Of a stretch of DNA of 61,323 nucleotides, positions 1,812 to 57,958 are shown one piece after another. Location: assembly GCA_018992685.1 (NCBI GenBank), contig JACVGT010000037.1, positions 1 to 61,323 on the forward strand, read 5' to 3'. Under the pieces are notes generated by a model that was not told where the DNA came from, did no database searches, and saw nothing but the letters and a program-made list of their open reading frames with translations. The position numbers and the translations under genes were made by a program. Every line of letters begins with the position of its first letter. The stretch's first letter is position 1. This stretch comes from Theionarchaea archaeon. GTDB taxonomy: Archaea; Methanobacteriota_B; Thermococci; Methanofastidiosales; SZ-28-30.

Positions 1812-2222
1812 TTTATGACCTCATCGAATACGTGCTGTTTCTCCTATTCTTGTTCACACTTCAGGGCAGACTTGCAGAGTCATGAACTGACCCAGTCTTG
1901 CATCTGCCTTTTCTCACTTTAATTCTCTCCTAACGAGCTCATATAAGCTATAAGTAGATTCGCTTATAAGGCTTTCGTTTTAAAAGATTTCAGAAGGAGA
2001 ATAGAGATGAAATGATTATCAATTGTCACAACCGCCGTTATTATTATAATCACAATGTCTTTCCTTTACAGGAAGACTTATTTTTCAGTTCTCCCTTTCT
2101 ACTATCTTCTTTCCTTTTATGTCAATAACTATGTTCATTGTACCTCACTGATCATTCTCTCTCCGATCTTGCACCCACCCTCTCCTCTATAAGTGGTTTG
2201 AATCAGATTTGGACATGGTGTC
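1812..2222. other. AT-rich intergenic region
   Basis: No gene is seen. Bases 1940-1971 contain two ATATAAG/CTTATAAG boxes in either orientation that could be TATA elements for the gene at 594-1811, about 130 bases upstream of its start. The right end (2169-2222) is the flank shared with the other att-like copy. Confidence 0.4.
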
Positions 2223-2240
2223 TGGCGCCGGGGTAGGGAT
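2169..2240 (-). repeat. tRNA-Ser 3' end and flank duplicated at copy A (copy B)
   Basis: This is the intact partner of the relic at 301-380. It includes the 3' end of tRNA-Ser with CCA and about 50 bases downstream. The exact shared core is 2218-2231. The downstream flank shares the CTTAT..AGGAGAGGGT pattern with copy A, where it lies just before the recombinase start codon. Confidence 0.5.
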
Positions 2241-2312
2241 TTGAACCCTAGTTGTGCTGAGCACAACCAGATCTCGAGTCTGGCGCGTTTGCCCTAGCTC
2301 CGCCACCCCGGC
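2223..2312 (-). tRNA. tRNA-Ser(CGA)
   Basis: The minus strand folds as a class II tRNA. The acceptor GCCGGGG pairs with CCCCGGC, the discriminator is G, and CCA is encoded (2223-2225). The anticodon arm is CCAGA-CTCGAGA-TCTGG, which puts CGA in the anticodon. The long variable arm is TTGTG-CTCAG-CACAA, and the T-arm contains GGTTCAAATCCC. The long variable arm and anticodon identify a serine tRNA reading UCG. Its 3' end is duplicated at copy A, making it the probable integration target. Confidence 0.95.
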
Positions 2313-2318
2313 CTTGAT

Positions 2319-3626
2319 CTACTTCGTTGAAGTCGTAATATTGATGTCCTTTACCAGCACGTACGGGGAAAACACAGGGTAGTCACATTCCCACCAGTGG
2401 ATTTGCTCCTGATCTCTGGATAACCCATCAACGTTCTCCAGCAACCGCAGCATATTGTCGCTGATCCTTATATTTCTTACGGCACCCGTGATGGCCCCAT
2501 CCTCAATCTTCAATATCGCGTCTCTGGGTATCGTCGAGAAATCACCCGTCATAAAGTTCTGAAACCTCGTGTACCACGTGTTAGTCACCAGCAGTCCTTT
2601 CTTGACCTCACTTACCAGATCATCGGTAGATTTCCCGCCACCTGCAATCACGACATTCTGCGGCTCCGGCGCATCCAGTCCCGCGTTTGCCGTAGTCTCT
2701 GTGCCAAACTTCTTGGCAGTGGACGTATTATGCAGGAAATTCTCCAGAACACCCTCCTTAATGATGGGCGTCCTTTTTGTAGGGACACCTTCCTTATCAA
2801 ACTTGGTTGAAAAAATCCCATTCTCCATCATGCCATCGTTCACCATGGTGAACTTCTCTGATGCCACCTTCTTTCCGATCTTTCCATAGAAGAATGATAT
2901 GCCAGAATCCACGAAAAAGGCTGACACTGAATACAATCCACCAGACATCAATGTGGCGAAACACAATGGCGTAAACAAGAGATCATAGTGCCCTTCCTCA
3001 CCCTTTACCGGGTTATGCGATTTCTTTGCCAGATCTGATGCATCTTCAGCAGCTTTTACCCCATTGAAGTCTTTCAGTGTGGCTGAGCAGCTTACACCAT
3101 GACCCGAACTGTCCTTCTCAGATGCACGACATGAAATCTCAATATACGCCCTCTCATCACTCCCTTCCGTGAACGTTGATGCAAAGTCAACCTCCTGATA
3201 GCGCGTGTACAGTACGCCTGCAATCCTCTCTGCTTCACATGCCTCAATGGCCTCATGCGTCAGTCCCACAGCATCTGCCTGTGCAATACTCATGTCGCAT
3301 CTGCGTTTCCTGTACTCAAAAGGACCATGTGCAATCCCGTGGTAATCCTTGCTCTCCTGCATCTTATCCAAAAGCTTAACGGCCCTTTTCATGTCTTCTT
3401 CAATCTTTTCCAGGTTCTGCAGGGTGAACTTCGTATTTCTGTTCCCCTTGGCCACGAAAATATCTGCATTCACCGTGTTAAACTCCTTGGCTACAGTAAT
3501 CTCGTTCCGCGAAAACCGCACCTGCTGACTCTTCTCATTGATAATCTGGCAGACTGCCTCATCCACGCCCATGGATGACGCTTCCTTCACCAGCCGAGAA
3601 GCACTCAACTCAACCACGGACACCAC
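2319..3626 (-). CDS. TldE/PmbA-family subunit of a TldD/TldE protease
   Basis: A 435-residue PmbA/TldE-family protein. In known systems TldE is the partner that lacks the zinc-binding HExxxH and forms a barrel with TldD to degrade unfolded peptides or mature modified peptides. The sequence has the family's N-terminal alpha/beta region (ASSMGVDEAVCQII), the central segment with HNPVKGEEGHYDLLFTP, and the late GDFSTIPRDAILKIEDG region, with no HExxxH. It begins at a GTG inside the 3' end of the upstream tldD-like gene (17-base overlap), so the two are co-transcribed and probably translationally coupled. A nearby second GTG (3623) is an alternative start. The stop lies 7 bases from tRNA-Ser. Confidence 0.9.
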   Translation of the reverse strand: MVSVVELSASRLVKEASSMGVDEAVCQIINEKSQQVRFSRNEITVAKEFNTVNADIFVAKGNRNTKFTLQNLEKIEEDMKRAVKLLDKMQESKDYHGIAHGPFEYRKRRCDMSIAQADAVGLTHEAIEACEAERIAGVLYTRYQEVDFASTFTEGSDERAYIEISCRASEKDSSGHGVSCSATLKDFNGVKAAEDASDLAKKSHNPVKGEEGHYDLLFTPLCFATLMSGGLYSVSAFFVDSGISFFYGKIGKKVASEKFTMVNDGMMENGIFSTKFDKEGVPTKRTPIIKEGVLENFLHNTSTAKKFGTETTANAGLDAPEPQNVVIAGGGKSTDDLVSEVKKGLLVTNTWYTRFQNFMTGDFSTIPRDAILKIEDGAITGAVRNIRISDNMLRLLENVDGLSRDQEQIHWWECDYPVFSPYVLVKDINITTSTK

Positions 3627-5016
3627 CCAACCTGATGTCTTTCAGTCGCATATACGGCCCGCCCATACTGGTGGGAGCACCCTGGACAGGATCCCCTTTC
3701 CCGCAGGTACCTGCATACAGAACGATTTCATCTGCCACAGCATCCACTGATGAATAGAATCCCGTTGTCGTGACTTCCAGGATGGGTCGCACCACGGGAG
3801 GCCCAATTTCACCATTCTCAATCAAATACGCTTCTCTTCCAATGTAACGCTGGTTGAACCTGGTATCATCAATATTCCACTCAGTAAATGATTTCATCAA
3901 GACACCTTTCTTTGTTTCTTCAATCAATTCATCTTGTGTGTAATCCCCAGCGCAGAAATACGTGTTAGCCATCCTGACAATAGGTTCTCTATCAAAGGCC
4001 ATGGCACGGGCAGCACCATTACTTCCACCGTTGAGGGCATATCCTGTTTCCCTGTTGGAGAGAAATTCATTAATCTTTCCTTCCTTGATCAGCATACGTT
4101 TTCTCGCCTTGATCCCTTCGTCATCGTACAGGTAGTACCCATAACTGCCTTCAATGGTAGGATCTTCTGCAATGTTCACGAGTTCGCTGCCGATGGTAGT
4201 ACCAATCATCGTCGGATTGACAAAAGACTCCCCTGCCTGCGCTGCCTCCCGTCCCAGGATACGGTCTGCTTCCAGGGGATGGCCACATGACTCGTGAGCA
4301 GTGATCCCTGCAACTTCAGGGCCCACAATGATGCTTACTGGTTCAGACGGTGCCTTAACTCCTTCTTTGAGAATCCGGTACAGGACCCTGACCTCTTCCG
4401 GCAGTCTTTCAAAGAGGTTGAGCCCCTGAAATGTTTCCCAACCCCCTATGCCTCCGTACTGAAGCTGACATTGTTCACTGTTATTACTCTCAATCACGGT
4501 AAGGATGGCCAGCAACCCAATGCGGGGAATGCGGGACCTGATCTCTGCCCCTTCCGTGTTGATGTAGTACTTGGTACGGTCCTCATCTGTGTACTGGTAT
4601 AGCTGGAATACTAATCCTTTTTCCTGCTGCAGGTGGTTATTCAAGTCTAAAAGCTCCTGAGATCTGTCAATATCTTCCAGATTTTTCTTTTGAGGAATTT
4701 CGTAGGAAGCAGTATGCATTTTTTCATCTGATAGTCCAATTTTCTCCTTGTTTCGTGCTGCTGACGCTCGGGCCAGCTTCTGTGCCTTTTCTACCACATG
4801 GTTGATGCTCTCTTTGTCCAGAGTGTTTGTGGATGCAAATCCCAGCCCTCCGTCTATGATCACTCTCACTGAAAGTCCGTGTTGACTGGCTAACTGGTAA
4901 ATATCCAGGTTACCATTCTTGACCACTGCCTGCAGTCCGCGCAGTTCTTCCATTCTGGCTTCCGCATAGTCTGCTTTTGACTGCTGCAGTGCATAGTGAG
5001 CTAAATTTTCGTCCAT
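3610..5016 (-). CDS. TldD-family metalloprotease subunit
   Basis: A 468-residue TldD homologue, the catalytic zinc metallopeptidase of the TldD/TldE heterodimer. The HExxxH signature is seen as HESCGH at residues 241-246, followed by PLEADRILGREAAQ, which is typical of the family. Length fits the usual 450-480. It is the first gene of a two-gene unit with the overlapping tldE-like gene. A TATA-like GGTTTATAAG (plus-strand 5040-5049) lies about 27 bases before the ATG, so the mRNA is probably leaderless. A second, distinct TldD/TldE pair occurs at 22.7-25.5 kb, so the two complexes may act on different substrates (inference). Confidence 0.93.
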   Translation of the reverse strand: MDENLAHYALQQSKADYAEARMEELRGLQAVVKNGNLDIYQLASQHGLSVRVIIDGGLGFASTNTLDKESINHVVEKAQKLARASAARNKEKIGLSDEKMHTASYEIPQKKNLEDIDRSQELLDLNNHLQQEKGLVFQLYQYTDEDRTKYYINTEGAEIRSRIPRIGLLAILTVIESNNSEQCQLQYGGIGGWETFQGLNLFERLPEEVRVLYRILKEGVKAPSEPVSIIVGPEVAGITAHESCGHPLEADRILGREAAQAGESFVNPTMIGTTIGSELVNIAEDPTIEGSYGYYLYDDEGIKARKRMLIKEGKINEFLSNRETGYALNGGSNGAARAMAFDREPIVRMANTYFCAGDYTQDELIEETKKGVLMKSFTEWNIDDTRFNQRYIGREAYLIENGEIGPPVVRPILEVTTTGFYSSVDAVADEIVLYAGTCGKGDPVQGAPTSMGGPYMRLKDIRLGGVRG

Positions 5017-5190
5017 CAGATATGGAGTCTACGTGAGACTTATAAACCTTGCCGTTACGGAAAGTCTGTAATATCACCAGCCACAGATAATATATTCTCA
5101 CCGCAAAGTGTCTCACCCTGTCGGTTGGGCGGAATAGGGGCTGGCTGTCGGAGGCTCCGGATCATCTGCAACCTGAGAGGAACAGGAAAA

Positions 5191-6183
5191 ATGAGGGAAA
5201 ACCTCTATAAAGACTGCGGCAATTACCACGCGATGTTCGACAAAAATGTGTTGTCCACCCTGCTGGTGTTCTCAGGCATTCTGCTGGTAGGTTATGTACT
5301 GCGCCCGCTAATTCCAGGGCTCTGTCTGGCTCTGGTTCTCATCTATGTGACAACTCCCATGACCAATTTCCTCCAGAAATATGTGAAGAAAAGAGTCATT
5401 GCCACCAGTCTGGCGTTTGTAGTCATTGTCATATGCTTTGGATTCTTGTCTTTTCTGCTGGTCGGTGAAATAGTACGAGAAGCTTCCCAGCTTCCAGCAT
5501 ACCTGCAAGATCAGGAGCTGCTTCAGGATTTGGACATATTTGGAAAAATCAGTGGAAGTGACATTGTCAAGAATCTTCTGACTGAGAATGGACTGAAACT
5601 GGTGGTGGGAATTGCTTCCCAGGTGGGAAACCTGCTGATTCAGGTGTTTTTCGGCGTGTTGATCTCCTTCGCTGTGGTATGGCAGCAGGTGAAGATACCG
5701 GTTCATGATGAGAAGGTGAAGGAAGTACTGGCCATTATTGACAGGGGACTTCACAGTGTGATTTCCAGTCTCTTCTCCACAGCCATTGTTACAGGGTTAA
5801 TCAGTGTCCCCATCTACATTGGGTTTGGGCTTCCGTACCCATTGATGCTGGCACTTCTCACGGGATTTCTGACATTGTTGCCCGTGATCGGAGCGTGGTT
5901 ACTGTATCTGCCTGTCACAGGGTACCTGTTCTTTGAGGATGGAATTACCCGGAGTGTGTTGTTCCTGGCAGTGTGCGCAGTGTTCATCAGTACAGTACCT
6001 GATATCCTCGTGAGACCCATAACGGGGAAGACCAAAGAAGTGGGAGCCATTCCCTTGCTGGTGGGATTTATCTGTGGGATGCTGGTATTCGGGGTTTCTG
6101 GCATCGTCCTGGGACCGGTGATCATCATTTCAGCTATCGCCTTCTGGAAAGTGTACTATGTTCAGGATTCTCACGCGGAGTAG
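5191..6183 (+). CDS. AI-2E/UPF0118-family membrane permease
   Basis: About 330 residues with seven or eight hydrophobic segments in the AI-2E (PF01594) pattern: two N-terminal helices (LVFSGILLVGYVLRPLIPG, then a second), a soluble stretch with SQLPAYLQDQELLQDL, and a C-terminal hydrophobic half with GLPYPLMLALLTGFLTLLPVIGAWL and a GIVLGPVIII end. Family members export small molecules or act as ion antiporters; the substrate here is unknown. The start is uncertain. ATG 5191 follows a purine-rich GAGAGGAACAGG, but ATG 5233 gives the more usual family N-terminus. It is transcribed divergently from tldD and in the same direction as ku, about 100 bases upstream of it. Confidence 0.85.
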   Translation: MRENLYKDCGNYHAMFDKNVLSTLLVFSGILLVGYVLRPLIPGLCLALVLIYVTTPMTNFLQKYVKKRVIATSLAFVVIVICFGFLSFLLVGEIVREASQLPAYLQDQELLQDLDIFGKISGSDIVKNLLTENGLKLVVGIASQVGNLLIQVFFGVLISFAVVWQQVKIPVHDEKVKEVLAIIDRGLHSVISSLFSTAIVTGLISVPIYIGFGLPYPLMLALLTGFLTLLPVIGAWLLYLPVTGYLFFEDGITRSVLFLAVCAVFISTVPDILVRPITGKTKEVGAIPLLVGFICGMLVFGVSGIVLGPVIIISAIAFWKVYYVQDSHAE

Positions 6184-6289
6184 TCTCTGCAGATCAGGAT
6201 TTGCCCAATTCATCCCCTGAGTGGAGTGCGCCACTTTGTTACCAGGGAATTTCGCAATCCTTAAGAGTGTGGAACTCCACGTACCACTC

Positions 6290-7048
6290 ATGCGTTCAAT
6301 CTGGAAAGGAACTATCGCATTTGGGTTGGTGAATATCCCGGTGAACCTCCACACAGCCACTAGGGATGATTCAGTGAGGTTCCACAATGTGTGTCCCACA
6401 CACCATGTGCCTCTCCAATACAAGAAATGGTGTCCAGAAGGACACGAAGAAATAGACTACAAAGATATGGAAAAAGGATATGAAGTCGGCAAGAACTATG
6501 TGATCATTGACCAGAAAGAATTAGATGCATTAGAACTTGAGAGTACGCATACGATTGACATTGAGAAGTTCGTGGACTCCTCTGACATCCCTATACTGGC
6601 ATACGACTCGTTCTACTTTCTGAGTCCTGGCAGGGGTGGAGAAAAAGCATATGCACTCCTCCACGAGGTCTTGACCCTGACAGGAAGAGTGGGTATAGGA
6701 AAAGTCGTCTTGCGCAGCAAAGAATATTTAGTGGCTCTCAAGAACTATCAAAAAGGTATTATTCTTGTTACTTTGCGGTATTCTGATGAAATTGTCAACA
6801 TTGATGAAGCTCTGCCTGATAATATGCCTGGAATTTCTGAGAAGGAGTTGGATCTGGCCAGAACTCTCATTGAAAAGATGGAGGGTGACTTGAACCTCTC
6901 GCAGTACCAGGATCGCTATCGAGAGAAAGTTGAAGAATTAGTACAGAAGAAGCTCAGAGGAGAAGCAATCATAGCAGAAGAAGTCAAAGAAACTGAAAAA
7001 ACCAAGGACATCCTGGCTGCTCTCGAGAAAAGTATTGAAGCCAGGTGA
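6290..7048 (+). CDS. ku: Ku DNA end-binding protein (prokaryotic NHEJ)
   Basis: A 252-residue Ku homologue with the core beta-barrel only, as in prokaryotic Ku homodimers. The characteristic start MRSIWKGTIAFGLVNIPV is present, followed by HNVCPTHHVPLQYKKWCPE (the two-cysteine segment of the family) and the central KNYVIIDQKELDAL. The C-terminus is a charged helical tail after YREKVEELVQKKLRGE. Ku binds broken DNA ends and recruits the ligase. The stop overlaps the ligase start in a GTGA (7045-7048), so the two are coupled. An in-frame upstream extension exists, but the family start is at 6290. Ku is common in bacteria and patchy in archaea. Confidence 0.96.
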   Translation: MRSIWKGTIAFGLVNIPVNLHTATRDDSVRFHNVCPTHHVPLQYKKWCPEGHEEIDYKDMEKGYEVGKNYVIIDQKELDALELESTHTIDIEKFVDSSDIPILAYDSFYFLSPGRGGEKAYALLHEVLTLTGRVGIGKVVLRSKEYLVALKNYQKGIILVTLRYSDEIVNIDEALPDNMPGISEKELDLARTLIEKMEGDLNLSQYQDRYREKVEELVQKKLRGEAIIAEEVKETEKTKDILAALEKSIEAR

Positions 7049-7977
7049 CAGGATTGCAGACCAAGTACCAGCCAATGCTAGCCAGGTCCTCAGGTCCCTT
7101 CACAGACAAGGACTGGATATTCGAGGTCAAGTGGGACGGCACACGAGCAGTATCATACATCAACCAAAAATCCACCTTTATTAACAGAAGAGGAGTCAAT
7201 ATCACGGATCGATATCCCGAGCTGCAGATCGAAGAGAATGTCACCGCCCCATGTGTCCTGGATGGGGAAATCGTCGTTCTCGTGGAGGGAAAACCGTCGT
7301 TCCCTGATTTGCAGCGGAGAGAGCACATCGAGGACCCCTTCAAGATTCAGATACTCTCCACGCAGTTACCTGCCGTCTACATCGTGTTTGACATTCTACG
7401 CTGTGACAGTAGAGACCTCACACAGACACCGTTACTGACCCGCAAGAGAATATTACAGCAGACAGTTTCGGAGTCTGAAAGGGTGCTTATCTGCCCATAT
7501 GTACAGGAAAAGGGAGAAGACTATTTTAAAGCTGTCACAGACTCTGGGTTTGAGGGTATCATGGCCAAGAAGAAAGATTCATTCTACTACCCCGGGAAAA
7601 GATCTGGTTCCTGGCTGAAGATCAAGAAGACACTGACTGCAGACTGTGTGATTGGCGGATTTACTCAGGGAGAAGGTGTGAGAGAACCCACGTTTGGCGC
7701 CCTGGTACTGGGTGTGGGCTGCCCACTCGAGCTTGTTGGGAAGGTGGGTTCAGGGTTTACTGACGATGATTTGATCCACATCTCAGCCCTGCTGACCCAG
7801 ATAGAGACTGATGAAAACCCCTTTTCTACTCCCGTACCGTATGATACCATACACTTTGTCAGACCGGAATACGTCTGTGAGGTGAAATACCAGCAGATGA
7901 CTCATGACAAAAAGCTAAGAGCTCCCGTTTTTCTGAGAATGAGGTATGATAAGACCCCTGCAGAATGTATTCAATGA
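7045..7977 (+). CDS. LigD-type ATP-dependent DNA ligase (ligase module only)
   Basis: A 310-residue ATP-dependent DNA ligase of the LigD/NHEJ type. Motif I is EVKWDGTR with the adenylated lysine at residue 29. Later nucleotidyltransferase motifs are visible: VLDGEIVVL (motif III), FEGIMAKK (motif IV) and SWLKIKK (motif V). An OB-fold domain follows, with VIGGFTQGEGVREPTFGALVLG. The polymerase and phosphoesterase modules of multidomain LigD are absent, and no separate genes for them are seen in the window. The GTG start overlaps the ku stop. With Ku it forms a minimal two-component end-joining operon; separate Pol and PE genes may lie elsewhere, as in Methanocella. Confidence 0.95.
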   Translation: MTGLQTKYQPMLARSSGPFTDKDWIFEVKWDGTRAVSYINQKSTFINRRGVNITDRYPELQIEENVTAPCVLDGEIVVLVEGKPSFPDLQRREHIEDPFKIQILSTQLPAVYIVFDILRCDSRDLTQTPLLTRKRILQQTVSESERVLICPYVQEKGEDYFKAVTDSGFEGIMAKKKDSFYYPGKRSGSWLKIKKTLTADCVIGGFTQGEGVREPTFGALVLGVGCPLELVGKVGSGFTDDDLIHISALLTQIETDENPFSTPVPYDTIHFVRPEYVCEVKYQQMTHDKKLRAPVFLRMRYDKTPAECIQ

Positions 7978-8130
7978 CACCCCCTGTGTGTTCTACCGAA
8001 GATTTGCTGAAATAAAGTGTGCAAGAATATATATAGAATACGTCACCATCATCAACGAGGTGGAAGTCTGTCCATCCCGGTGAAGGAGACAGTGGACGGA
8101 CTGAATTGGTCGAAAAGGGAGATGGTACAA

Positions 8131-8598
8131 ATGAGAGAAATTCCTTATGATGAGGTGGGAGAGAACAGTGCGTACATGCTCACCATGGTATGCAGGAAAT
8201 GCGGGCAGGAAATCAGCAGAACAAGAGTTTTTCATGATCCTGAATCTGTGATAAATCTGTACGAAGAGGCACAGAACGATCGCATGGTAAACTGGTGTGG
8301 TCCATGTGGATCCATGGGAGATATCCACGTCTGGGAAATGAATGAAGGAGAGAATGAGACCTTCTATCTTCTGAATGTTCACACGCAGCAACCTGAGATT
8401 GATCACTGGTGTTTTAGAAAATGTGGAAAGATTTCTGTTACCTGTGTTACATTGGATAGTGAAGAGGGAAAACTGTCTTTTCTGCTCTGTAGAAGCTCTT
8501 CTTGCCCCAACTGTGAAAGGGAAGTGGACTTGGGTCCTGGCAAGACCAAGGAGGGCATTACAGGTCAGTATATTGTGAGGATTCTGAGCCCTGTTTGA
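8131..8598 (+). CDS. Cysteine-rich probable zinc-binding protein, function unknown
   Basis: About 155 residues, not recognised as a named family. Four cysteine pairs are seen in order: CRKCG, CGPCG, a C..KCGK segment and CPNCE, a spacing that suggests two zinc-ribbon-like knuckles. A TATA-like ATATATATAG (about 8029-8038) puts the transcript start near 8060, which excludes longer frames upstream. ATG 8131 follows GGGAGATGG, and ATG 8122 is an alternative. The gene sits between the NHEJ operon and the translation genes with no overlap. A nucleic-acid-binding role is possible but is only inferred from the zinc ligands. Confidence 0.6.
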
Positions 8599-8704
8599 TC
8601 TGGTGGAGGTCATGGTGACGGGACCTGAAGTGTTCTTATGCACATTTTGGGTTTTGCCGCTTGGGCAACCAAATGTTTATAAAAGGGAAAGAAATATGCA
8701 ACCC

Positions 8705-8857
8705 ATGAAGTGTACCTCATGTCAGAAAGAAATTTCACCCCATGAAAAAGTTGTCACCTTTCCTTGTCCTCAATGTGAAGAAACAGTCATAAGATGCGAA
8801 AAATGCCGTGTCCTGGCGAACCCGTACAGATGTAGTTGCGGGTTTGAGGGGCCGTGA
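8705..8857 (+). CDS. Small zinc-ribbon protein next to aEF-1beta
   Basis: A 50-residue protein with two CxxC pairs plus CxxC/CxC groups ([29 protein letters not shown]). This is the archaeal zinc-ribbon family, annotated as an RNA-binding protein involved in translation, that is habitually encoded just upstream of aEF-1beta. The TATA box TTTATAAAAG (8676-8685) is about 25 bases before ATG 8705, arguing for a leaderless start here and not at ATG 8696. The gap to the next gene is 9 bases and carries that gene's ribosome binding site, so the two are one operon. Confidence 0.85.
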
Positions 8858-8866
8858 GGTGGTCAT

Positions 8867-9142
8867 GTGTACAACTTAATTGCAACATTAAGAGTATTGC
8901 CTGAGGATACTGAAACAGATCTGAAAGAACTGGAAGAGATTATTCGAGGGTTGATACCTTCTCACATGGAACTGCACAAAGTGGAACAGGAGCCCATTGC
9001 ATATGGGCTGGTGGCCCTGAGAATCATGGTTTTGACCATTGATGACGCGTCAGGGAGTACCGACGTTCTGGAATCTTCCATTCAGGACCTGGACATGGTT
9101 TCTCAGGTAGAAGTAATCGATGTACGAAGAACATTGGGTTAG
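8867..9142 (+). CDS. ef1b: Translation elongation factor aEF-1beta
   Basis: A 91-residue archaeal EF-1beta, the nucleotide exchange factor that reloads aEF-1A with GTP. The N-terminus YNLIATLRVLPEDTETDL, the conserved PIAYGLVALRIMV strand and the end VSQVEVIDVRRTLG are the family pattern, and the length is normal (about 88-92). It starts at GTG 8867. A GAGGTGG ribosome binding site overlaps the stop of the zinc-ribbon gene, supporting coupled expression. Confidence 0.96.
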   Translation: MYNLIATLRVLPEDTETDLKELEEIIRGLIPSHMELHKVEQEPIAYGLVALRIMVLTIDDASGSTDVLESSIQDLDMVSQVEVIDVRRTLG

Positions 9143-9325
9143 ATTTAGAATTTCCTGGATTTAATGAGTTCACCTTTCATACTTTTTTCTTCTTGGGAAT
9201 TTACGCGGCTTTGTCCCATGCTCAGGTCTCGAACAGTGGATCTGATCGGGAAGGTAAGAACGTCCTGTGAGGGTTCAAGGGAAAGAAAGGGCAAAGATTT
9301 AATTGTCAACTACCATGACACTTCC

Positions 9326-9808
9326 ATGACACAGAGTACTCCTTCACAGGAATTCTGGCAAACGTTACCTGAGCTGCCGCAAGATGTCTTTCTGGTGTGG
9401 CAGAAGCTAAACAGAGCCTTTAATCCAACAGCCATCGTCGCCACCAGAGAACCCGATGGAACCCCCCATACAGCACCATTTGGAAGTCTCCGAGCTATCA
9501 GCCCCCGGATTTTGCGATTCGCCACGTGGCGTGGTCATGAGACATATACGAATACTTGTCGTGATGATCGAGTGGGGGTCTTTCTCCTGTCTCCACCAGG
9601 TATGGCAGTCAGCGTGAAAGGTCGAGCCAGAATAGCAAGAGAGATAATGGAGGCAGACCCTAATTATGCTGTCATAGAAATTGATATTGACATGGTGAAG
9701 AACGATATGGTCCGCCGCATCGTACTCCAGAGTGCAATCACCATTCATATTCCGGATCAATACATGGGCTGGTTTGAAGCATTGCTGGGCGAATTGGACA
9801 CCATGTAG
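9326..9808 (+). CDS. FMN-binding split-barrel (pyridoxamine phosphate oxidase-like) protein
   Basis: A 160-residue protein with the PNPOx-like split beta-barrel pattern: TAIVATREPDGTPHTAPFGSL for the first hairpin, then LRFATWRGHETYTNTCRDDRVGVFLL, where the basic residues and the T-N-T segment are in the place that binds FMN phosphate. Family members are small flavin reductases or flavin-binding proteins; the substrate cannot be read. ATG 9326 is about 27 bases after an ATTTAATT box, consistent with a leaderless transcript. An open extension upstream lacks protein-like character. It stands alone, downstream of aEF-1beta. Confidence 0.75.
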   Translation: MTQSTPSQEFWQTLPELPQDVFLVWQKLNRAFNPTAIVATREPDGTPHTAPFGSLRAISPRILRFATWRGHETYTNTCRDDRVGVFLLSPPGMAVSVKGRARIAREIMEADPNYAVIEIDIDMVKNDMVRRIVLQSAITIHIPDQYMGWFEALLGELDTM

Positions 9809-10339
9809 AGGTAGATATAACTATTGATGATCCATCAAAGAGCCAGCAGCCAATGGTACCTGTTTGAAAACGTCACTGCGAAAGGACCTCTTAGGTCTCC
9901 TTCAGTCTGAAGATACAGTTGCAGGATCTAGGATGCATATTGTCATACAATTTTCCACATTGATGACACTCCTGATGACATTCTTACTCTCAGAAAAAGG
10001 CAGGAGCCATTCTGAGACGCACAACAAAGGTTAAGATCACATAACTGCCCGGACAGAATGCGGAGTTTTGAGAATAGGCTATAACAAAAAGTATATAAAT
10101 GTCCCTGAATAAGAAAATGTAAATGTCTCTGGGAAAAACATAGATGACACACGGGTGATCAAGCTTTTGCCGGAGTGGTATTTCATGGGAAACGCTAGCA
10201 GCCTGGAGTGGGCAATCAATTCTCCTACTATGAGAACAAGCTCTGGAACCACGAGATGGGTCAGTCCTCATTCAAATAGGGATAGGGATGCTGTATCAGT
10301 ATGGATTCTCAATAAAGATTCAGGGAAAATGGTGATTTC
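9809..10339. other. Long intergenic region with a strong TATA box and a possible 62-codon leader ORF
   Basis: A TATA-like GTATATAAAT (about 10090-10099) would start a transcript near 10120, some 220 bases before the ATG of the large gene at 10340. In that leader an open frame of 62 codons starts at GTG 10155. Its TGA overlaps the ATG of the large gene in an ATGA (10340-10343). The peptide looks only weakly protein-like, so it may be a leader peptide or a coincidence. Nothing is recognised in 9809-10080. Confidence 0.3.
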
Positions 10340-13300
10340 ATGACACGGTGGCACTACGTGGTCATCATTCTAATATTCGTAGTATCACCCGTAGTGCCAG
10401 GGAAGGCAAATAGTCAGAGCAAATGTGCAGCAGCTGATGAGGCATACAATGAGGGAAACTATGAGGAAGCCCTGCTGGCCTACACCGTTCTGTGGGACGT
10501 GTATGGGGAACCATGTGCAAAAGCGGGAATAACCAAGGCAGAGAAAGCACTCCAGGATAAGGCAAAGCGACTTTACGAGATAGGTAAAGCATTGGACGAT
10601 TCCGGACACGAGGAGCTTGCTGTTGAAGCATACATCAGTGCGTTGAGTAAGGACACGAAGAACATAGATTCCGTAGAAGCACTGGAACAGAAAGCCAATT
10701 CGTGGCTCAACAGACTGTCAAATATCTCATTTCAAAATATTCTTGAATTCGTGGTTCTTCTAGTGGCTCTTCTCATATTCGTGTTGAAGTGTGCCCCCTG
10801 GATTGCGAGTTCCCTCCGCTGTAAACCTCGTCTCTTTATCGATCGTTTCGACACAGGGTCGACGAAGTTGCAGCTTAACAAAGGATTAGAAATGAGAATA
10901 GAAGATGAGTTCAAAAAAAGCATGAATGTTAGCGATAAAGCACTTATGAAACTGGTGGAGGGGCCTATTACTCTGAGAGCTCCAGCAGGTTTGGGATCTA
11001 CAGCACACATTAAGATACTTTCTGATTTGATTGAGTGGGCTTTTCCTCCGAATGCGACCATACTGAGTGGATGTTTGCACGAATCAAAGAAGAACGGCGC
11101 GGGCCTGACTCTGAAATTGAAGAGCAACAAGACAGGAGAGATTATAGCTGCAGACACACTATGGCAGAATGAGTTCGACGAGGACTGGAAAGACAGAGAG
11201 AAGGACAAAGAAAAGAGAAGACAAGGAGATGTCAAAGCTGGAGATCCGTCTGACTACTATTGTCTAGCAAAACCTGCAGCAATATGGATCCTTTTCAAGC
11301 TCATAGAGTATGAAGAAGACAGAAAACTCCTAAGGTGTGGAAGAGACAATCAAGAACGAAAAGAAAAGGTAAGACAGTCAGTTCTAAGGTTGGGTACTGA
11401 AGACTGGAAGAGTTATGTTTTCTTTCAGCATGGGCGAGACCATGATTTGATCAATGATGTAGCAGAAGCCAGGAAGTGCTACGTGAAAGCGCTAGAGAGT
11501 GATCCCATGAACCGATATGCCCTGTGCAACCTTGGACTATTGACAATAGAACAGGGCGTACGGGAGGCAAACGACTACAAGTATGAAGAGGCAATAGGAT
11601 TGCTGAAAAGAGCAAAGAGACTCTCAATAGAATACGAAAAGGACTTAGATTGGTTAGAATGGATGAAAGAAGTCATGGAAAACAACAATTGTAAATGTGT
11701 CCATGTCGACAATATGTGGTTCAGAGCAGTGTTGAACCTGGCCAGTGCCTATCATTACGGGAAGAACTATAACCAAGCAACGAGAGTAGTGTCGTGCATA
11801 CTGCATTCCCTTGAGAAAACCCTCGAGGTTTCGGAAACGGTTTATGAATGGGAAGGAGGACTTTTGAACAGACTCCGGAATTGTCTTACACTGGCTCTAT
11901 TCATCATAGCAGTGAAAGTGAAGCTACCATATGTGGGCAGAGCCTACAGTGTAGGATTATTTGGTGATTGTTTGAGACCGAAGAATGATTATTTGGAGGA
12001 CATACGTAGACTCACGGACTACTTGAAGGAATTGAGGCATTATACGATGGTACTGCATGCAATATCACGAGTCAGAGCAGACGAAATCAAAGATACTGAT
12101 GAACATATAAATAAAATCATAAGTGTAATAGCTGAATCAGATGATAAGAAATCAGATGATAAGAAAGAGAAAAGAGAACCTCCCAGCCAGAAAAAAGGCG
12201 AATCTGATGAAAAAAAGCACAAAAAGAAGAAACGTGTGAGAGCAAAGAATGTAAAGGCAGAAATTAAGTATGATCTTGCGTGTTATTACTCCGTTGCCCG
12301 CGAGGAGAAAAAGGATGTGAGAAAAGATGAGTTTGAGGACGAATATGATACAGCAATAAAGTACTTGAAAGATGCCCTCCTTGAAGGAGGCATTACGCTG
12401 GAGTGGGCAAAAGTAGATCCAGACCTTAGAGGACTCCGTGAAAACAGGGAAGGGGAATTCAATAAATTAATCCATGCATATACCGTTGAAATTACTGAAA
12501 ACCAGACATCACTTTCCGAGGTCGAGAAAGAAAAAATCAGTGCACAAATAAGAAGAATCAGGACCGAAATGTTACACAAGCAGCACTCCAGCGATGAAGT
12601 GCATATCATTGTTCTCCTGTGCAATGAGAATGGAGTGGCAGTATTCAGAAAAGAAACAGGCAAATGGGAGCTCCCAGAAGGACCAGCGAAAGGGAATGAG
12701 AATCTGGACTTAGCAGTAGATCGTATTCTCTCTGAGTATGTCCTCGACAGTCACCAGGTGAAGGTTGATTCTTCCGTCCTCTTATACTGTACAGACTGCG
12801 ACAAGGGTGTCAATAGGTTCTACTGCGTTGCTATTGCACGAATGAATGAGGTGGAGGGTAAGAATTTCGGCAAGAAAGAAGAAATTCAAGTTTCATTCAT
12901 TTCCAGACATGATGTGACAGAGAGAAAAGTGGAAGACACGTGTCAAAGATGCTTACTGGAGAAATACCTCGATAGCCCCAATACCCTGAAGACGGAGGCG
13001 AAATCCCTTGGTCCTTCGGATACGAAGCGGGATCGATCGGAAAATGCTGGAGAACCCCACGAAGAAGATGTTCGGGTTCCAGCCCCCCTGATTAAGGTGA
13101 AAGGTGTTCTTCTGGCATTCTGTGAAAGAAATATGGGTGAAAGGAAATTCAGGGGAATAGTACTGGTGAGAAAGAGAAACTCTACAAGTAGTGGAGGTGG
13201 AGAGTGGATTCTTCCTGCAGCCTTTGTGAAACGAGGTGAGACGGCGTCGAAGGCACTGAGTCGTCACATTTTGGATACGTATCATATCACTCTCCAGCAG

Positions 13301-13594
13301 GATAATATCCTCTCTGCACTCAAGATCAGAACTGATCCTGGAAGAGATTCAGACTTCTACGTGTGGACACAGCCTTTTGCGTGTTTTTTCATGGAGGACC
13401 ATTGGAACACATGGTGTGAAACCGAAGAGATGCGAATTTTTTCCCTCAATAGATTGCCATGGGATGATATGTCACTTGACTGCCAGCACATCCTGAGAGA
13501 GTGCATGCCCCGTGTTCTTGCTTTTGTTGAAGACTCCGGAGTATACTCTGAAAACAAGACAAGAAAACCACAAAGAGAGACTCAAGACAAGTGA
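10340..13594 (+). CDS. Membrane-anchored TPR protein with two degenerate Nudix-like domains
   Basis: 1084 residues. An N-terminal signal/anchor (about 5-20) and a short TPR region (30-115) precede a transmembrane helix (about 135-152). Next comes a beta-rich domain from RPRLFIDRFD, with LTLKLKSNKTGEIIAADTLW, then TPR units (EARKCYVKALESDPMNRYAL; CYYSVAREEK..AIKYLKDAL) split by a lysine-rich linker near 598-635. The C-terminus has two Nudix-like domains. Near 754 it has GKWELPEGPAKGNENLDLA, and near 918 onward GEWILPAAFVKRGETASKA then RHILDT. The catalytic REUxEE is not preserved in either, so they are probably binding modules. Topology suggests both ends face opposite or controlled sides of the membrane. 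Function unknown; a ligand-sensing or defence role is speculative. Confidence 0.65.
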   Translation: MTRWHYVVIILIFVVSPVVPGKANSQSKCAAADEAYNEGNYEEALLAYTVLWDVYGEPCAKAGITKAEKALQDKAKRLYEIGKALDDSGHEELAVEAYISALSKDTKNIDSVEALEQKANSWLNRLSNISFQNILEFVVLLVALLIFVLKCAPWIASSLRCKPRLFIDRFDTGSTKLQLNKGLEMRIEDEFKKSMNVSDKALMKLVEGPITLRAPAGLGSTAHIKILSDLIEWAFPPNATILSGCLHESKKNGAGLTLKLKSNKTGEIIAADTLWQNEFDEDWKDREKDKEKRRQGDVKAGDPSDYYCLAKPAAIWILFKLIEYEEDRKLLRCGRDNQERKEKVRQSVLRLGTEDWKSYVFFQHGRDHDLINDVAEARKCYVKALESDPMNRYALCNLGLLTIEQGVREANDYKYEEAIGLLKRAKRLSIEYEKDLDWLEWMKEVMENNNCKCVHVDNMWFRAVLNLASAYHYGKNYNQATRVVSCILHSLEKTLEVSETVYEWEGGLLNRLRNCLTLALFIIAVKVKLPYVGRAYSVGLFGDCLRPKNDYLEDIRRLTDYLKELRHYTMVLHAISRVRADEIKDTDEHINKIISVIAESDDKKSDDKKEKREPPSQKKGESDEKKHKKKKRVRAKNVKAEIKYDLACYYSVAREEKKDVRKDEFEDEYDTAIKYLKDALLEGGITLEWAKVDPDLRGLRENREGEFNKLIHAYTVEITENQTSLSEVEKEKISAQIRRIRTEMLHKQHSSDEVHIIVLLCNENGVAVFRKETGKWELPEGPAKGNENLDLAVDRILSEYVLDSHQVKVDSSVLLYCTDCDKGVNRFYCVAIARMNEVEGKNFGKKEEIQVSFISRHDVTERKVEDTCQRCLLEKYLDSPNTLKTEAKSLGPSDTKRDRSENAGEPHEEDVRVPAPLIKVKGVLLAFCERNMGERKFRGIVLVRKRNSTSSGGGEWILPAAFVKRGETASKALSRHILDTYHITLQQDNILSALKIRTDPGRDSDFYVWTQPFACFFMEDHWNTWCETEEMRIFSLNRLPWDDMSLDCQHILRECMPRVLAFVEDSGVYSENKTRKPQRETQDK

Positions 13595-13667
13595 ACGTGC
13601 AATCCCGGTCTACCCTGAACGAACATATTTGGCATAATTCTTTTATCCCTATAGTGAAAACCTAATC

Positions 13668-14975
13668 ATGATTCATCCCATAGAATACCGATATGGTTCA
13701 CCCGAAATGAAGCAGATTTTTGAAGAAGGGCAAAAACTCCAGTACTACCTGGATGCGGAAGCCGCTCTTGCCGAAGCGCATGCCCGACTGGGTCATATTC
13801 CTGAAAAAGAGGCCCAGAAGATCAGGAATGCTGCCACCATTGAGAAGGTGTCCCTTGAAAGGGTTAAAGAAATCGAGGTCAGAACCAAACATGACATGAT
13901 GGCAGTGGCTGAAGCTCTGTCAGAAGCCTCTGAATCCGGGTATGTGCATATGGGAGCTACATCAAATGATATTGTAGATTGTTCAAATGCTATTCAATTG
14001 AGGAAAGCTACCCAGCTTGTTCTCAGGAACGTAAAGGAGTTGAAGAGAATCTTGGCTGACCTGGCAGGAACTTACAAGACCCTGGTATGCGTGGGGAGAA
14101 CTCACGGGCAACACTCCGTACCCACTACCTATGGAATGAAGTTCGCCCTGTATCTGGACGAAATGAGACGTAACAACCGGAGAATCACGTCAGCCTATAA
14201 CCATGTGTACGGCAAGATGTCAGGAGCAGTAGGTACCATGGCGTCCTTCACTGATGGACCAAAGATTCAGGATATCGTGGGTGAAATTCTGGGAATACCG
14301 ATGGCTCCCATCTCCAGCCAAATTGTCCAGAGAGATACCTATGCTGAACTGCTGTGCTCTCTGGCTATTCTAGCCTCTACCCTGGACAAAATTGCCACAG
14401 AAGTGAGAAACTTGCAGAGAACGGAAATTAATGAAGTGTCAGAAGGGTTCTCCAAGGGGCAGGTGGGTTCATCAACTATGCCCCATAAGAAAAATCCCGT
14501 AACCTGTGAGAAGACGTCAGGACTGGCCAGGGTTATCTATTCCAATGTCCTTCCCGCTCTCCAGAATAATGTTCTGTGGCATGAACGGGATATCACCAAC
14601 TCATCATGTGAGCGGGTGATTCTTCCTGAAACTTTTGTCCTGATTGATGAGATGCTGATCGGAATGAAGAATGTTTTGGAGAATCTGGTATTTCATCCTG
14701 AAAATATTGAGAGAAACCTGTATTTGCAGCGTCAGAGCCTGGCAGAATCAGTGATGATTGCTCTGACGGAGAGGGGAATGCCCAGGCAGGAAGCACACGC
14801 TGTCCTCAGAGGAATATCCATGCAGGAGAACTTCGTGGAGGCAGTAAAGCGAGATTCCCAGATCCGTGAGATCCTTTCAGAAGAGGAGATTGAGGATTTG
14901 CTAACCCCTGAAACCTACATAGGAGATTCAGTGGCCATTGTAACCCGGGTTCTTCAGCAAAAAGATGAGTTCTAA
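13668..14975 (+). CDS. purB: Adenylosuccinate lyase
   Basis: A 435-residue adenylosuccinate lyase of the fumarase/aspartase superfamily. It cleaves SAICAR to AICAR and adenylosuccinate to AMP plus fumarate in purine synthesis. The superfamily signature is seen as GSSTMPHKKNP near residues 267-277. The conserved MGATSNDIVD and GRTHGQHSVPTT segments, carrying the catalytic His, are also present. Length is normal. A TTCTTTTATCC box about 28 bases before ATG 13668 suggests a leaderless mRNA. It is a single gene with 73 bases between it and the TPR-Nudix gene, and no functional link to that gene is evident. Confidence 0.97.
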   Translation: MIHPIEYRYGSPEMKQIFEEGQKLQYYLDAEAALAEAHARLGHIPEKEAQKIRNAATIEKVSLERVKEIEVRTKHDMMAVAEALSEASESGYVHMGATSNDIVDCSNAIQLRKATQLVLRNVKELKRILADLAGTYKTLVCVGRTHGQHSVPTTYGMKFALYLDEMRRNNRRITSAYNHVYGKMSGAVGTMASFTDGPKIQDIVGEILGIPMAPISSQIVQRDTYAELLCSLAILASTLDKIATEVRNLQRTEINEVSEGFSKGQVGSSTMPHKKNPVTCEKTSGLARVIYSNVLPALQNNVLWHERDITNSSCERVILPETFVLIDEMLIGMKNVLENLVFHPENIERNLYLQRQSLAESVMIALTERGMPRQEAHAVLRGISMQENFVEAVKRDSQIREILSEEEIEDLLTPETYIGDSVAIVTRVLQQKDEF

Positions 14976-15098
14976 CCCAAAGTAATCTGAGAAGGGCTGC
15001 CTATAAGAAGAAGCCGTCACTTTTTTATAACTGCGCTCTATTGCAACTCCATCTATGATCAAAAGTTTGGACCTGTAGATATGAAAAGAGGTGATTAA

Positions 15099-15239
15099 AT
15101 GGCAATTGACCCTGTATGTGACATGAAGGTTGACGAAAAGACGGCAAAATGGAAAACAGATTACAAAGGGAAAACCTATTACTTCTGCGCACCTGGATGC
15201 AAGAAAGCTTTCGAAGCTGAGCCAGAGAAGTACCTTTGA
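15099..15239 (+). CDS. YHS-domain metal-binding mini-protein
   Basis: A 46-residue protein consisting of a single YHS domain. It has DPVCDMKVDEK, then YKGKTYYFCAPGCKKAFEAEPEKYL, with the three cysteines (residues 7, 30, 34) and the YYFC..GCKKAF core of the family. YHS domains occur in copper ATPases and metal-sensing or trafficking proteins, and a soluble stand-alone YHS protein probably binds a transition metal. The start is fixed by a near-perfect AGAGGTGAT ribosome binding site 4 bases upstream, with a TTTTTTATAA TATA box at 15021-15030. No metal transporter is adjacent. Confidence 0.88.
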   Translation: MAIDPVCDMKVDEKTAKWKTDYKGKTYYFCAPGCKKAFEAEPEKYL

Positions 15240-15639
15240 GACGATTTGACGCAGCCATTTTTGACTTTGAGTTCTTGACAGTGGGGACTCTACAGAGAGA
15301 ATTCAATTGTGGGATCACAGGTATTCCTACAAGAAGCAATGAAGAGTCGCAGCTATCCACCGAACTTCGAATTCTAATGGCACGATTTACGGTGGATAAT
15401 TCCGGATCACTGCGAGTGTGGAGTTCTCGCTGTGAATTTCCTTGCACGGTATTGCAGTGCGTTTCTTTGAGTGTAACCCACGTATCGATGTGCCTTCTTT
15501 CTCGGTAACAAGTCACAGGGAGAACAGATGAGCAGACGAAAGCATGGTTGACATCCTTCTGATGCGCTGTAACCGTGATAGAGTGTTGCCGGGCCAAAAG
15601 AGCAATATCAACATCCGGTACATATGCCGATAGCTATTT
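15240..15639. other. Intergenic region without recognised features
   Basis: No gene, tRNA or repeat is recognised. A CTATTTATG box at 15632-15641 may be the promoter of the AbrB-ACT gene, but it overlaps that gene's proposed start codon. Either the real start is further downstream or the box is not the promoter. Confidence 0.4.
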
Positions 15640-46585: not shown

Positions 46586-49500
46586 TCAATCCATGCATAT
46601 TTCCTCGAAAGCGTATTGGAAGATTCCTTTCCTTGTTTGAAGGATAACAATGAGGACTCCTTGTTTATTGTCTTCGGTTCCTTTCGCAGTAAGCTGGGTA
46701 TAGCCCTTGGCTCTGTGGTAGATCAAATGTATCCTAGTATCTCCAATTAGTAAGAACTGATTGAGTCTCTTGATGCTGCTTCCTTCGATAAGGTACTCGA
46801 TTTTCAATTGATTCTCCGGAAGAGATACTGGCTGGCTATTGTATTTCAAATTTACGATTTCTGCCTTGATTTCCCTGCCTACACTTTGGATTTCTACTGC
46901 AAGTTCTGTTGTGTTTCCTGCGTCATCAGTGAGGGTATAGGTGCGAATCTTTCTATTCTTCGAACTTTCCTCATCAATGAAGATTTTTGTAGAAGATAGA
47001 TTGTCCACCCCTCGAACTTTCACATCCTCACTGGAGATATCAAAGAAGAGTTCAGCTTCAGGTGGGGTGCGGTCCAGGAGATACTGAATGGATAGTTCGT
47101 TGTTTGATTCCGATGTCTCATCAATTGAATTATCGGGGTCCACACTGACAAGAAAAGTATAGAAGCCATCAGGGAGTGAACAGTGAATGGAAGCAGGAGT
47201 GGTCTCCCCAGGAGATATAGACACAATTTGCTCTCCCAGAAAGATTCTCTCAGAGGAAGAACCTGCAAAGAACTGAATTTTCGCACTGTCTGCAGAGAGA
47301 AGTCCCTTATTTGAAACCGATGCGGTGACAGCAATTTCCTCCTGGCGTACTGGGGATACTGTTATCTCCTCAGGTGTCAATTCTGCCCGTGAAGAAGCAG
47401 TGAGTGATATATCAGCTGTCATGTCGTCATCTTCAAAGGATGTAGCTTCAACGCGGACGGTATAATCCTGAACTGGTATGTTTGAGGGACTAGTGACTCT
47501 CAATAGAATGGTGGCAGATTCCCCCGAATTTAGCGATATCACTTCAGATGAGAGTGCATGTGACCAGGTGAAAGGCGTATCCACCTCCAGGATAAAGGTA
47601 GACGGCTCTCCTTCGTTGACGAGAGTGAGTTCATAGATCATCTCTTCGCCCACTCGAAGAGGGTTGATGGGGGACTGGCTGGATAGCTCTACGGATACAG
47701 GCAAAACAGTAAAATCAGTAGTCCCATCACTATCTGTATCAACACTTAGTGATAGATCTGATCTTAAGTCAAGCACTCCCCTAGTAGAAACAGTCACTGG
47801 AACATCTCTATATTTCACTGTCTTTGTGGTATTCCAGAGGCTTGTGACACAGACCAGGTCAAGAGTTCCCTCACCTGTACCAGCTACTTCTACCTGGTAC
47901 TGATCAATTCCTTGGATGATGTAGAACTCTTCTTCATCACAATCTTGAACACAGGCATTTGGGATCTCCTGCACGAATTCCCCATTTACAATCCCCAGCC
48001 TCTGTCCACGGCTATTGACAATAAGCATGTCAACAGGACAGGAGAGGGAAAAAAGGGTGTAAGGACTTTCGATAGTCTGTGGACTGTTGTGATAATGAGT
48101 GAAAGCCCATTCTAGAGGATTGTTCCAAATATCTTCGTGACACATAGGACCGTAGGGACCCGATTCCCACATCCAACATCCAAAATTGTAAGTATTAAAA
48201 CGTGACTCGGCCGGTTCTCCAACAAGGACTCCCCAATTTCCTCTAAACCATAACCAGGATTGGTTTGTTAGGGTAGATATTCCTGACATTACTCCTTTCC
48301 AGCCGTCATCAGATGTCTCATCCACATCCAAAAAGCCAAAAGAGCCTTCACTGAAATATTCTCTGTGAGACCCCCTTGCCACATAGATTGCAGGATGAGT
48401 ACCTTTCTTTTCTATCTCTTCCCAAAGACGATATTCAGCATCATCATCCCTAGAAATACACAGTCCAATGGGGTTCTTGGTCTGTTTATCCAGAAGTACT
48501 TGAGCTACCTCCCAGTCTCCTTCATGATCAATGTAGCGATCATCGAATATATAGAAGAACCAGTACTGAATTATAATATACTCCACCCTCTCATATCCAA
48601 AACAATCGACTCTGCAGTATACGTGTCGATCACTGGTCTGTTCATTTATGAGGGAAGCGTCTATCCCGCAGTGCTCGTGATTCAAATCCAGAAAGTGGTC
48701 GGGGGTAGGGTGTATGGAAAGGACCTCCAGTTTTTCTGAAGTGTCAGCTGCTTGAGCGAATTCAAGGATTTCTACTCTACTGGTTTCACTGTCTCCAGCA
48801 AGTTCATATCGCCACAACGTTGAATTCTCCAACATGGTTTCCACAGGGGTTGGGAAGAACTTTTCTTCTTCGCCAATTCCCCCGTAAAAGTACATATATG
48901 GACTGTACATCTGGATGAGATCATCGATTTCCTCTTCCGGGATTTCACAGGAAAATCTACCCCTATGCTTCACTTCGAACTCAAAAGTCTGGGGTACATA
49001 GCATACATCGTACTCATCAAAAGGATGGATTTCCACGTGGTAAATCCCTGCAACTGTGGGAGTGTAAGAAGCTTCATAGACACCGGGAGATACCTCCTCC
49101 CACTCCAGATCATCTGAATGATCTTCGCGGGTCACCTTACCTGAAATACCAGAAACGGGATTTCCACCATCATCTGTGGCCGTAGCTGTCATGTGGACAG
49201 TCTCATTCTCTTCATAGACTGGGGGATTTCTGTCAAACTGTAAGGTAATACACCCTCCATAACAGACCTCAAACGTCGTGGAAGCATCAGCATCATTATA
49301 TAAAGCTTTCTCAGCAGTCACGGAAATGTGGTACCTCCCCTCCATGGGAATAGTATGCCAGCTGCATTCATACTGTTCTTCCTCCTGGTTCCAGGTCCAC
49401 ATCCCTGGAGGCATTTCCTCTTCTGTTTCATCTGGCAAGACGACTGTCCCTGTTATGGTATCGACCTGGATTCTCTTCCCTGTGAATTGGTCAGTGACAT

Positions 49501-50083
49501 ACAGGATGACCTGTGTGGAAGTGGGTGGTTCATAGAATTCATCCACTGTCTCCAGGTGGGCATCCATTACCGGACCCGTCCCATCATCGTAGAAGTACCA
49601 GATCCAGACATCATTACCAATGTGGAAAGAAGGAGAGGTCACCAAATAGGTCCCCGGGGGTACATATGTCAGGGGAAGCGCTTGTGGCACATAGTACGGA
49701 TCATCATAATAACGAACATAAATCACGTCAGCTTCATACAAGATAGGTGTACAACCTGTGCAGTGCTCAACACACTGAGTATCAGGGTATTCACGAAAGT
49801 GGAGAATTCCTCCTTTCTCTTCGTGGGTAGAAACACCAAAAACCCAGACACCTCGATCTTCCATTAAAGATCCCCCTATGGTAAGGCGGGGGACCCATCC
49901 CTCCTCGCGACACATAGTTCCGCACAGACATTCTGGAGCTTCCATAACCCACCAGTTGTCAGGGATGTAGGGCCTCTTGTAATATGCCCTGTTCCCAAAA
50001 GGCACTGGGCTCACCTGAGAGGACAGCACGCAGCAAAGTGTTATCGTCAAAATAGCTACCATGAACAGCAAGACCTTCCTCAT
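46586..50083 (-). CDS. Very large exported multidomain protein with a Vps62-like domain
   Basis: 1165 residues with a signal peptide (about 1-22). In order: a cysteine-containing N-terminal region (ECLCGTMC), two Ig/macroglobulin-like stretches (about 180-380, for example TQVILYVTDQFTGKRIQVDTI), a Vps62/DUF946-like domain about 490-585 (YWFFYIFDD, then HEGDWEVAQVLLD and HPAIYVARGSHREYF), a NEW3-like stretch about 815-900 (EMIYELTLVNEGE, SGESATILLRVTSP) and a CARDB domain about 912-1000 (NKGLLSADSAKIQFF, DETSESNNELSIQY). No C-terminal anchor or sorting motif is seen. It is a secreted or surface protein; CARDB and NEW3 imply binding or adhesion. The biochemical role is unknown. Confidence 0.75.
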   Translation of the reverse strand: MRKVLLFMVAILTITLCCVLSSQVSPVPFGNRAYYKRPYIPDNWWVMEAPECLCGTMCREEGWVPRLTIGGSLMEDRGVWVFGVSTHEEKGGILHFREYPDTQCVEHCTGCTPILYEADVIYVRYYDDPYYVPQALPLTYVPPGTYLVTSPSFHIGNDVWIWYFYDDGTGPVMDAHLETVDEFYEPPTSTQVILYVTDQFTGKRIQVDTITGTVVLPDETEEEMPPGMWTWNQEEEQYECSWHTIPMEGRYHISVTAEKALYNDADASTTFEVCYGGCITLQFDRNPPVYEENETVHMTATATDDGGNPVSGISGKVTREDHSDDLEWEEVSPGVYEASYTPTVAGIYHVEIHPFDEYDVCYVPQTFEFEVKHRGRFSCEIPEEEIDDLIQMYSPYMYFYGGIGEEEKFFPTPVETMLENSTLWRYELAGDSETSRVEILEFAQAADTSEKLEVLSIHPTPDHFLDLNHEHCGIDASLINEQTSDRHVYCRVDCFGYERVEYIIIQYWFFYIFDDRYIDHEGDWEVAQVLLDKQTKNPIGLCISRDDDAEYRLWEEIEKKGTHPAIYVARGSHREYFSEGSFGFLDVDETSDDGWKGVMSGISTLTNQSWLWFRGNWGVLVGEPAESRFNTYNFGCWMWESGPYGPMCHEDIWNNPLEWAFTHYHNSPQTIESPYTLFSLSCPVDMLIVNSRGQRLGIVNGEFVQEIPNACVQDCDEEEFYIIQGIDQYQVEVAGTGEGTLDLVCVTSLWNTTKTVKYRDVPVTVSTRGVLDLRSDLSLSVDTDSDGTTDFTVLPVSVELSSQSPINPLRVGEEMIYELTLVNEGEPSTFILEVDTPFTWSHALSSEVISLNSGESATILLRVTSPSNIPVQDYTVRVEATSFEDDDMTADISLTASSRAELTPEEITVSPVRQEEIAVTASVSNKGLLSADSAKIQFFAGSSSERIFLGEQIVSISPGETTPASIHCSLPDGFYTFLVSVDPDNSIDETSESNNELSIQYLLDRTPPEAELFFDISSEDVKVRGVDNLSSTKIFIDEESSKNRKIRTYTLTDDAGNTTELAVEIQSVGREIKAEIVNLKYNSQPVSLPENQLKIEYLIEGSSIKRLNQFLLIGDTRIHLIYHRAKGYTQLTAKGTEDNKQGVLIVILQTRKGIFQYAFEEICMD

Positions 50084-57572: not shown

Positions 57573-57958
57573 TCCAAATCACCTCGAAGCTTCTGATCAT
57601 TGACCCTTTTTAAGCGTTGCGTTTCTTGGAAAGGATTCAGGCCAATTTGGCATATGATATATTCTATCTTAGCAGATACACACCTCAGAGAACCCTGTTC
57701 TCGCTGGCTGTTGCAGATATCCTGAGAGCTGTGACACGTGAACATCAGGTGGCTCCACACGCCTCGCTCAGAATTTGATACAGCCAGATGTCCACCTGAT
57801 GGATAACCTGGTGGTAACACTCATCAAATCACACGTACCAGTCTCCTACTACCAGGATTTACATACCCGGCCCTGGCTGTACCAGTACGTTTTTCATGAT
57901 GTGAAGACGCTTCGCCATGATTCGAAAAGCTTAAAGGCACATGAGCGAAGTGGGGGCT
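57573..57958. promoter_or_regulatory. Intergenic region between the divergent histone and FAU-1-like genes
   Basis: The left end holds the histone promoter. At the right end AGCTTAAAGG (about 57928-57937) lies about 26 bases before ATG 57959. Nothing is recognised in 57625-57915. Confidence 0.5.

Follow-up and report, generated by a model that had tools for sequence, protein, structure and literature searches.

The analyzed DNA, hereafter the window, is a stretch of 61,323 nucleotides on contig JACVGT010000037.1 of a Theionarchaea archaeon, and positions 10340-13594 of its + strand, on which all the parts of the protein described below are coded, are occupied by a gene for a membrane protein of 1084 aa. 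The open reading frame begins with ATG, contains no internal stops and is present in a single copy in the genome, its coordinates and length being exactly those of the original prediction. Its flanking genes code for EF-1 beta, adenylosuccinate lyase and an ATP-dependent DNA ligase, and fit an archaeon. From the N-terminus on, the protein consists of a probable signal peptide, a first TPR region, a transmembrane helix, an alpha/beta core domain, a second TPR region with a lysine-rich linker, a TPR-end motif and two Nudix-like domains which have lost their catalytic residues. Elsewhere in the window we observed, at 57941-59323, an RNase E/G-family plus DUF402 protein (FAU-1-like), here in an archaeon, and at 46586-50083 a protein of 1165 aa with CARDB and filamin-like repeats which is probably a surface protein.

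The gene lies in an accessory stretch (9812-13620) absent from the sister genome G001. Window positions 2222-9811 and 13621-15240 are collinear with that genome at about 82% identity, and between them 196 bp are present there (L129, 7613-7808) versus 3.8 kb here. GC content of the insert (0.438) is slightly below that of its flanks (0.477 and 0.485). The stretch has the appearance of a clean accessory insertion between collinear genes, with no obvious mobile-element gene. Since the gene is missing from the sister genome and the scaffold described below is absent from the 114 other genomes of the phylum, the gene is accessory, that is, either gained here or lost in the sister.

Residues 1-25 (10340-10414), previously taken for an N-terminal anchor, do contain a hydrophobic segment (residues 7-25), but they resemble a signal peptide, and an extracellular position is predicted for the first TPRs. 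In relatives of the protein the same region carries A-x-A-type ends upstream of a conserved Cys. The extracytoplasmic TPR region (10415-10720) has a TPR_8 match at residues 76-103 and contains Cys29 and Cys59. Five of the six family members have conserved this pair, and it is missing from the most diverged one, that of Pelolinea. This TPR region is followed by a transmembrane helix (residues 134-156, 10739-10807), which is strongly hydrophobic at residues 134-152 (KD 2.78), so that the TPR-like repeats at residues 76-103 and 367-406 flank the membrane helix as had been predicted. The C-terminal side of the helix is K/R-rich: in the five members tested 3-5 K/R residues per 15 are found there versus 1-3 on the other side. 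This bias and the outer Cys pair indicate that the first TPRs are outside and everything after the helix is inside, i.e. a probable topology, deduced from sequence, with extracellular N-terminal TPRs and a cytosolic C-terminus.

The core alpha/beta domain (residues 162-345, 10823-11374), which defines the family, appears to have a CadC-periplasmic/TolB-N/CsgG-like topology, and in Pfam it matches no family outside its TPR part. Its AlphaFold model, made from three sequences, is poor (pLDDT 54) and has alternating helices and strands, a three-stranded run and then TPR; Foldseek with this pLDDT 54 model placed the CadC periplasmic domain first (prob 0.99, E 7e-3), while VIA-align ranked other beta-alpha-beta-beta-beta-alpha folds (e.g. 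HPF) ahead. When the core profile was compared with TolB-like domains of plasmid TPR proteins, LSG...WQNEFD aligned with LEG...WAERYD, a result equalled by 1 of 300 column shuffles and given a probability of 2% by hhalign. The CadC/TolB-N likeness of the core domain is consequently to be read as a lead and not as membership. The cytoplasmic TPR region (residues 352-600, 11393-12139) opens with the GTEDWKSY motif and has its TPR at residues 367-406. The lysine-rich linker (residues 601-638, 12140-12253) is present, but it is situated within the cytoplasmic TPR part, 5' of the TPR-end motif, and does not directly precede the Nudix pair as was originally supposed. The TPR-end motif itself (KYDLACYY...WAKVDPDLRGLRE; residues 643-701, 12266-12442; NF047558 match at residues 668-704) contains an LAC which is invariant across all six family members.

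These six members, the 1084-aa protein included, were found in a search of 1,621 genomes of archaea and Chloroflexota. As the selection of genomes centred on the same lineages, the count says nothing on other phyla; within the searched lineages the distribution of the family looks rare and patchy. The members share a common order of signal peptide, TPR, transmembrane helix, core domain, TPR and TPR-end motif, and the protein from the window carries the core domain as well as the GTxxW and LACYY motifs by which the scaffold is recognized. The first relatives, from a Methanophagales archaeon (38% identity) and Pelolinea submarina (27%), came from a scan of genome contigs, and three further members (G800, G1059 and G1249) from profile searches. 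The scan used alignment A2, of which rows 2-4 were composed probe sequences that only chose the scan patterns, and its matches were verified by running tblastn with the 1084-aa protein; rows 2-5 of alignment A1 and one further query were likewise composed sequences, used as probes only. A hit in G722 (L106) was not counted as a member, because the match is partial and confined to the TPR end of the model. Relatives were found neither by direct search of genome contigs with the full protein, nor in plasmids with its middle part, nor in viral contigs with the probe alignment or with either Nudix domain as query. In PADLOC the sole match was that of the Nudix region to candidate PDC-S07 (E 4e-5).

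The C-termini of these proteins differ. Four of the six end in DUF4332, that of G1059 ends shortly past the TPR-end motif, and the Nudix pair is present in the 1084-aa protein alone, so that fusion of Nudix to the scaffold is known from one genome; DUF4332 was not found in that genome. The best reading of this pattern is that the C-terminal module is exchangeable across the family and that here DUF4332 was replaced by two Nudix-like domains. The searches for proteins of the same architecture thus returned five scaffold relatives but none with a Nudix tail. They found no homologue in which the Nudix box is intact, a result which would have made the protein an ordinary hydrolase. The genomic neighbourhood of the homologues yielded no operon partner: the flanking genes in L021, L022, L108, L109 and L132 are unlike one another and unlike those in the window. 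After the tail-less Chloroflexota member (L109, 9975-12817) come a putative metallopeptidase-like protein (HEIAH, HExxH-type) and a membrane protein, which are possible partners.

The second Nudix domain (residues ~914-1067, 13079-13540) firmly belongs to the Nudix superfamily fold, well beyond chance. It scores 22.7 bits with Pfam NUDIX (cut-off 21.1). With an HMM built from 86 ADPRase-like Nudix domains the score is 36.1 bits over the whole domain, and the highest score among 2,000 shuffles was 5.1. Its model is a Nudix fold with pLDDT mostly 77-96 and matches 2yyh (Z 17.1), AraR (5dd4, Z 16.8; 139 residues, 2.3 A) and NrtR (3gz6, Z 15.5); since this model was built on an alignment of Nudix proteins, independent evidence comes from the sequence test. 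Profile search places the domain in the ADPRase group which includes NrtR (3gz5, E 1.6e-17) and AraR (5bs6, E 6e-15), the dead-Nudix receptors that are its nearest solved sensors. The box reads AFVKRGETASKALSRHILDTYHI versus GFVEYGETVENAVMREIREETGL in intact relatives: in RHILDTYH the Glu of RE is changed to His, the EE pair to Asp-Thr and the Gly to His. When aligned at the ligand-contact positions of AraR and NrtR, R1002, the first Arg of RDPR, is kept, K944 replaces the beta2-beta3 Arg and C1048 replaces the His of FDH. As contact residues are only partly kept, a pocket identical to that of AraR/NrtR is unlikely and the ligand may differ.

The Nudix-like domain 1 (residues ~752-880, 12593-12979) is likely, although not proven, to be a Nudix domain. 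With the same HMM of 86 domains it scored 5.2 bits, and 4 of 2,000 shuffles were higher, while Nudix was the leading or only match in Pfam (NUDIX, E 0.077, profile positions 5-120 of 134), NCBIfam (Nud_hyd_Dein, E 1.4e-3), PHROGs (MutT/NUDIX, E 0.072) and the PDB, where the only match at E<=10 was the Nudix protein DR1025 (E 1.4). The model of this domain is of low confidence (pLDDT 31-64) and a weak test of it, since the alignment behind the model covers only Nudix 2. Its box, WELPEGPAKGNENLDLAVDRILSEYVL (also given as EGPAKGNENLDLAVDRILSEYVL), is broken as well, RILSEYVL having RI for RE and EY for EE. The predicted succession of two Nudix-like domains with degenerate boxes was borne out, and the active-hydrolase box GX5EX7REUXEEXGU with its catalytic Glu is found in neither. 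The pair cannot be traced to a tandem duplication, there being no usable similarity between the two domains (E 0.13). Nudix 1 also contains two CxxC pairs, C817/C820 and C868/C871 (window 12785-12952), which possibly form a structural zinc site.

With their catalytic residues lost, the Nudix domains probably sense an intracellular small molecule and do not cleave it. We consider the chances slightly better than even that the protein is a membrane receptor or scaffold in which the DUF4332 tail was swapped for dead Nudix domains, at least the second of which is a ligand-binding switch relaying to TPR partners. Such a type-I protein would have its N-terminal TPRs outside, held by a probable disulphide, and would span the membrane with a single helix; inside, the CadC/TolB-N-like alpha/beta domain would lead into a partner-binding TPR array. 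At least Nudix 2 would act as the switch, as in NrtR, AraR and TRPM2: a cytosolic metabolite of nucleotide or sugar type would bind and change the shape of the Nudix domain, which would pass the change on to the assembly of TPR partners at the membrane. Ligand binding and relay are inferred, and ADP-ribose/NAD is the most likely ligand class, though not a certain one, while a ppGpp-type ligand has no specific support. More tentatively, the six proteins may represent an unrecognised archaeal/Chloroflexota family of transmembrane receptors with a constant TPR scaffold and interchangeable C-terminal modules, in which this member would use a tandem dead Nudix to couple a signal from the cytosol, nucleotide-like or derived from NAD, to TPR partners bound at the membrane. 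Of the original interpretation, the two broken-box Nudix-like domains in a membrane TPR protein stand; the exchangeable-tail family, the possibly CadC/TolB-N-like domain between the membrane helix and the TPRs, and the assignment of Nudix 2 to the ADP-ribose pyrophosphatase/NrtR/AraR group are additions to it.

Because relatives have DUF4332 (helix-hairpin-helix-like) or nothing at the same position, the Nudix tail may also be an interaction module. The main rival reading, in our estimate less likely than the sensor, is that the dead Nudix domains are a protein- or RNA-binding docking tail of a membrane-bound assembly which replaced DUF4332, and not metabolite sensors. Some Nudix domains, CFIm25 for example, bind RNA or protein and do not hydrolyse, and the partial retention of the NrtR/AraR ligand residues in Nudix 2 agrees with docking, but the domains nearest to Nudix 2 are small-molecule ADPRases and sensors, and the region of its RD motif has been retained. 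If the gene were an accessory one in decay or of recent acquisition, with a Nudix part drifting without function, this would explain why it is absent from the collinear site of the sister genome and elsewhere in the phylum; we regard this as improbable, as the frame of 1084 codons is free of stops, the scaffold motifs are intact, with 35% identity to the Methanophagales member, Nudix 2 keeps core fold residues and gives a confident model, and both boxes lost the catalytic residues while the remainder was kept. That one of the domains still hydrolyses a substrate by means of an atypical active site is hardly credible, for although Nudix 1 keeps one Glu of REUxEE (RILSEY) and Nudix 2 the upstream GE, the metal-binding Glu positions are lost in both.

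The receptor with a ligand-binding Nudix tail, which we prefer, can be compared with several known systems. The DUF4332-tailed relatives from Methanophagales, Pelolinea and other archaea are alike in the entire scaffold, which starts with the signal peptide and runs up to the TPR-end motif, and differ in the tail. CadC/ToxR-like sensors and TolB-like/TPR proteins of the COG5616 type combine, as this protein may, an alpha/beta TolB-N-like domain with subsequent TPR-like helices in a single-pass protein, and CadC has a disulphide in its outer part, comparable with the probable one here. However, the alpha/beta domain of CadC is periplasmic and its DNA-binding domain cytosolic, while here the alpha/beta domain is predicted to be cytosolic and the sequence link is weak. 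The Nudix domains of NrtR and AraR, whose boxes are impaired, bind ADP-ribose, NAD or L-arabinose and thereby change conformation (PMC4666351). Their effector-binding domain is a dead, ADPRase-like Nudix of the same group, and the box is impaired here too, but they are soluble and have a C-terminal DNA-binding winged helix. The Pfam scan found no winged helix in the 1084-aa protein, which ends about 17 residues past Nudix 2 and, unlike them, has a membrane helix, TPRs and a second Nudix-like domain, with the ligand residues partly kept. Human TRPM2 (PMC6461439, PMC5671594) is a membrane protein which senses ADP-ribose by a dead Nudix. Its NUDT9-H resembles our case in being a dead Nudix at the cytosolic C-terminus (predicted here) of a membrane protein, whereas TRPM2 is an animal ion channel, its membrane part has no known relation to ours, and here two Nudix-like domains are combined with TPRs. 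In any case the protein gives access to a scaffold family with a core domain that has no match in Pfam, and if its tail binds a metabolite, it would be the prokaryotic parallel to TRPM2, with a dead Nudix serving as the cytosolic sensor of a membrane protein, within a family of exchangeable tails.
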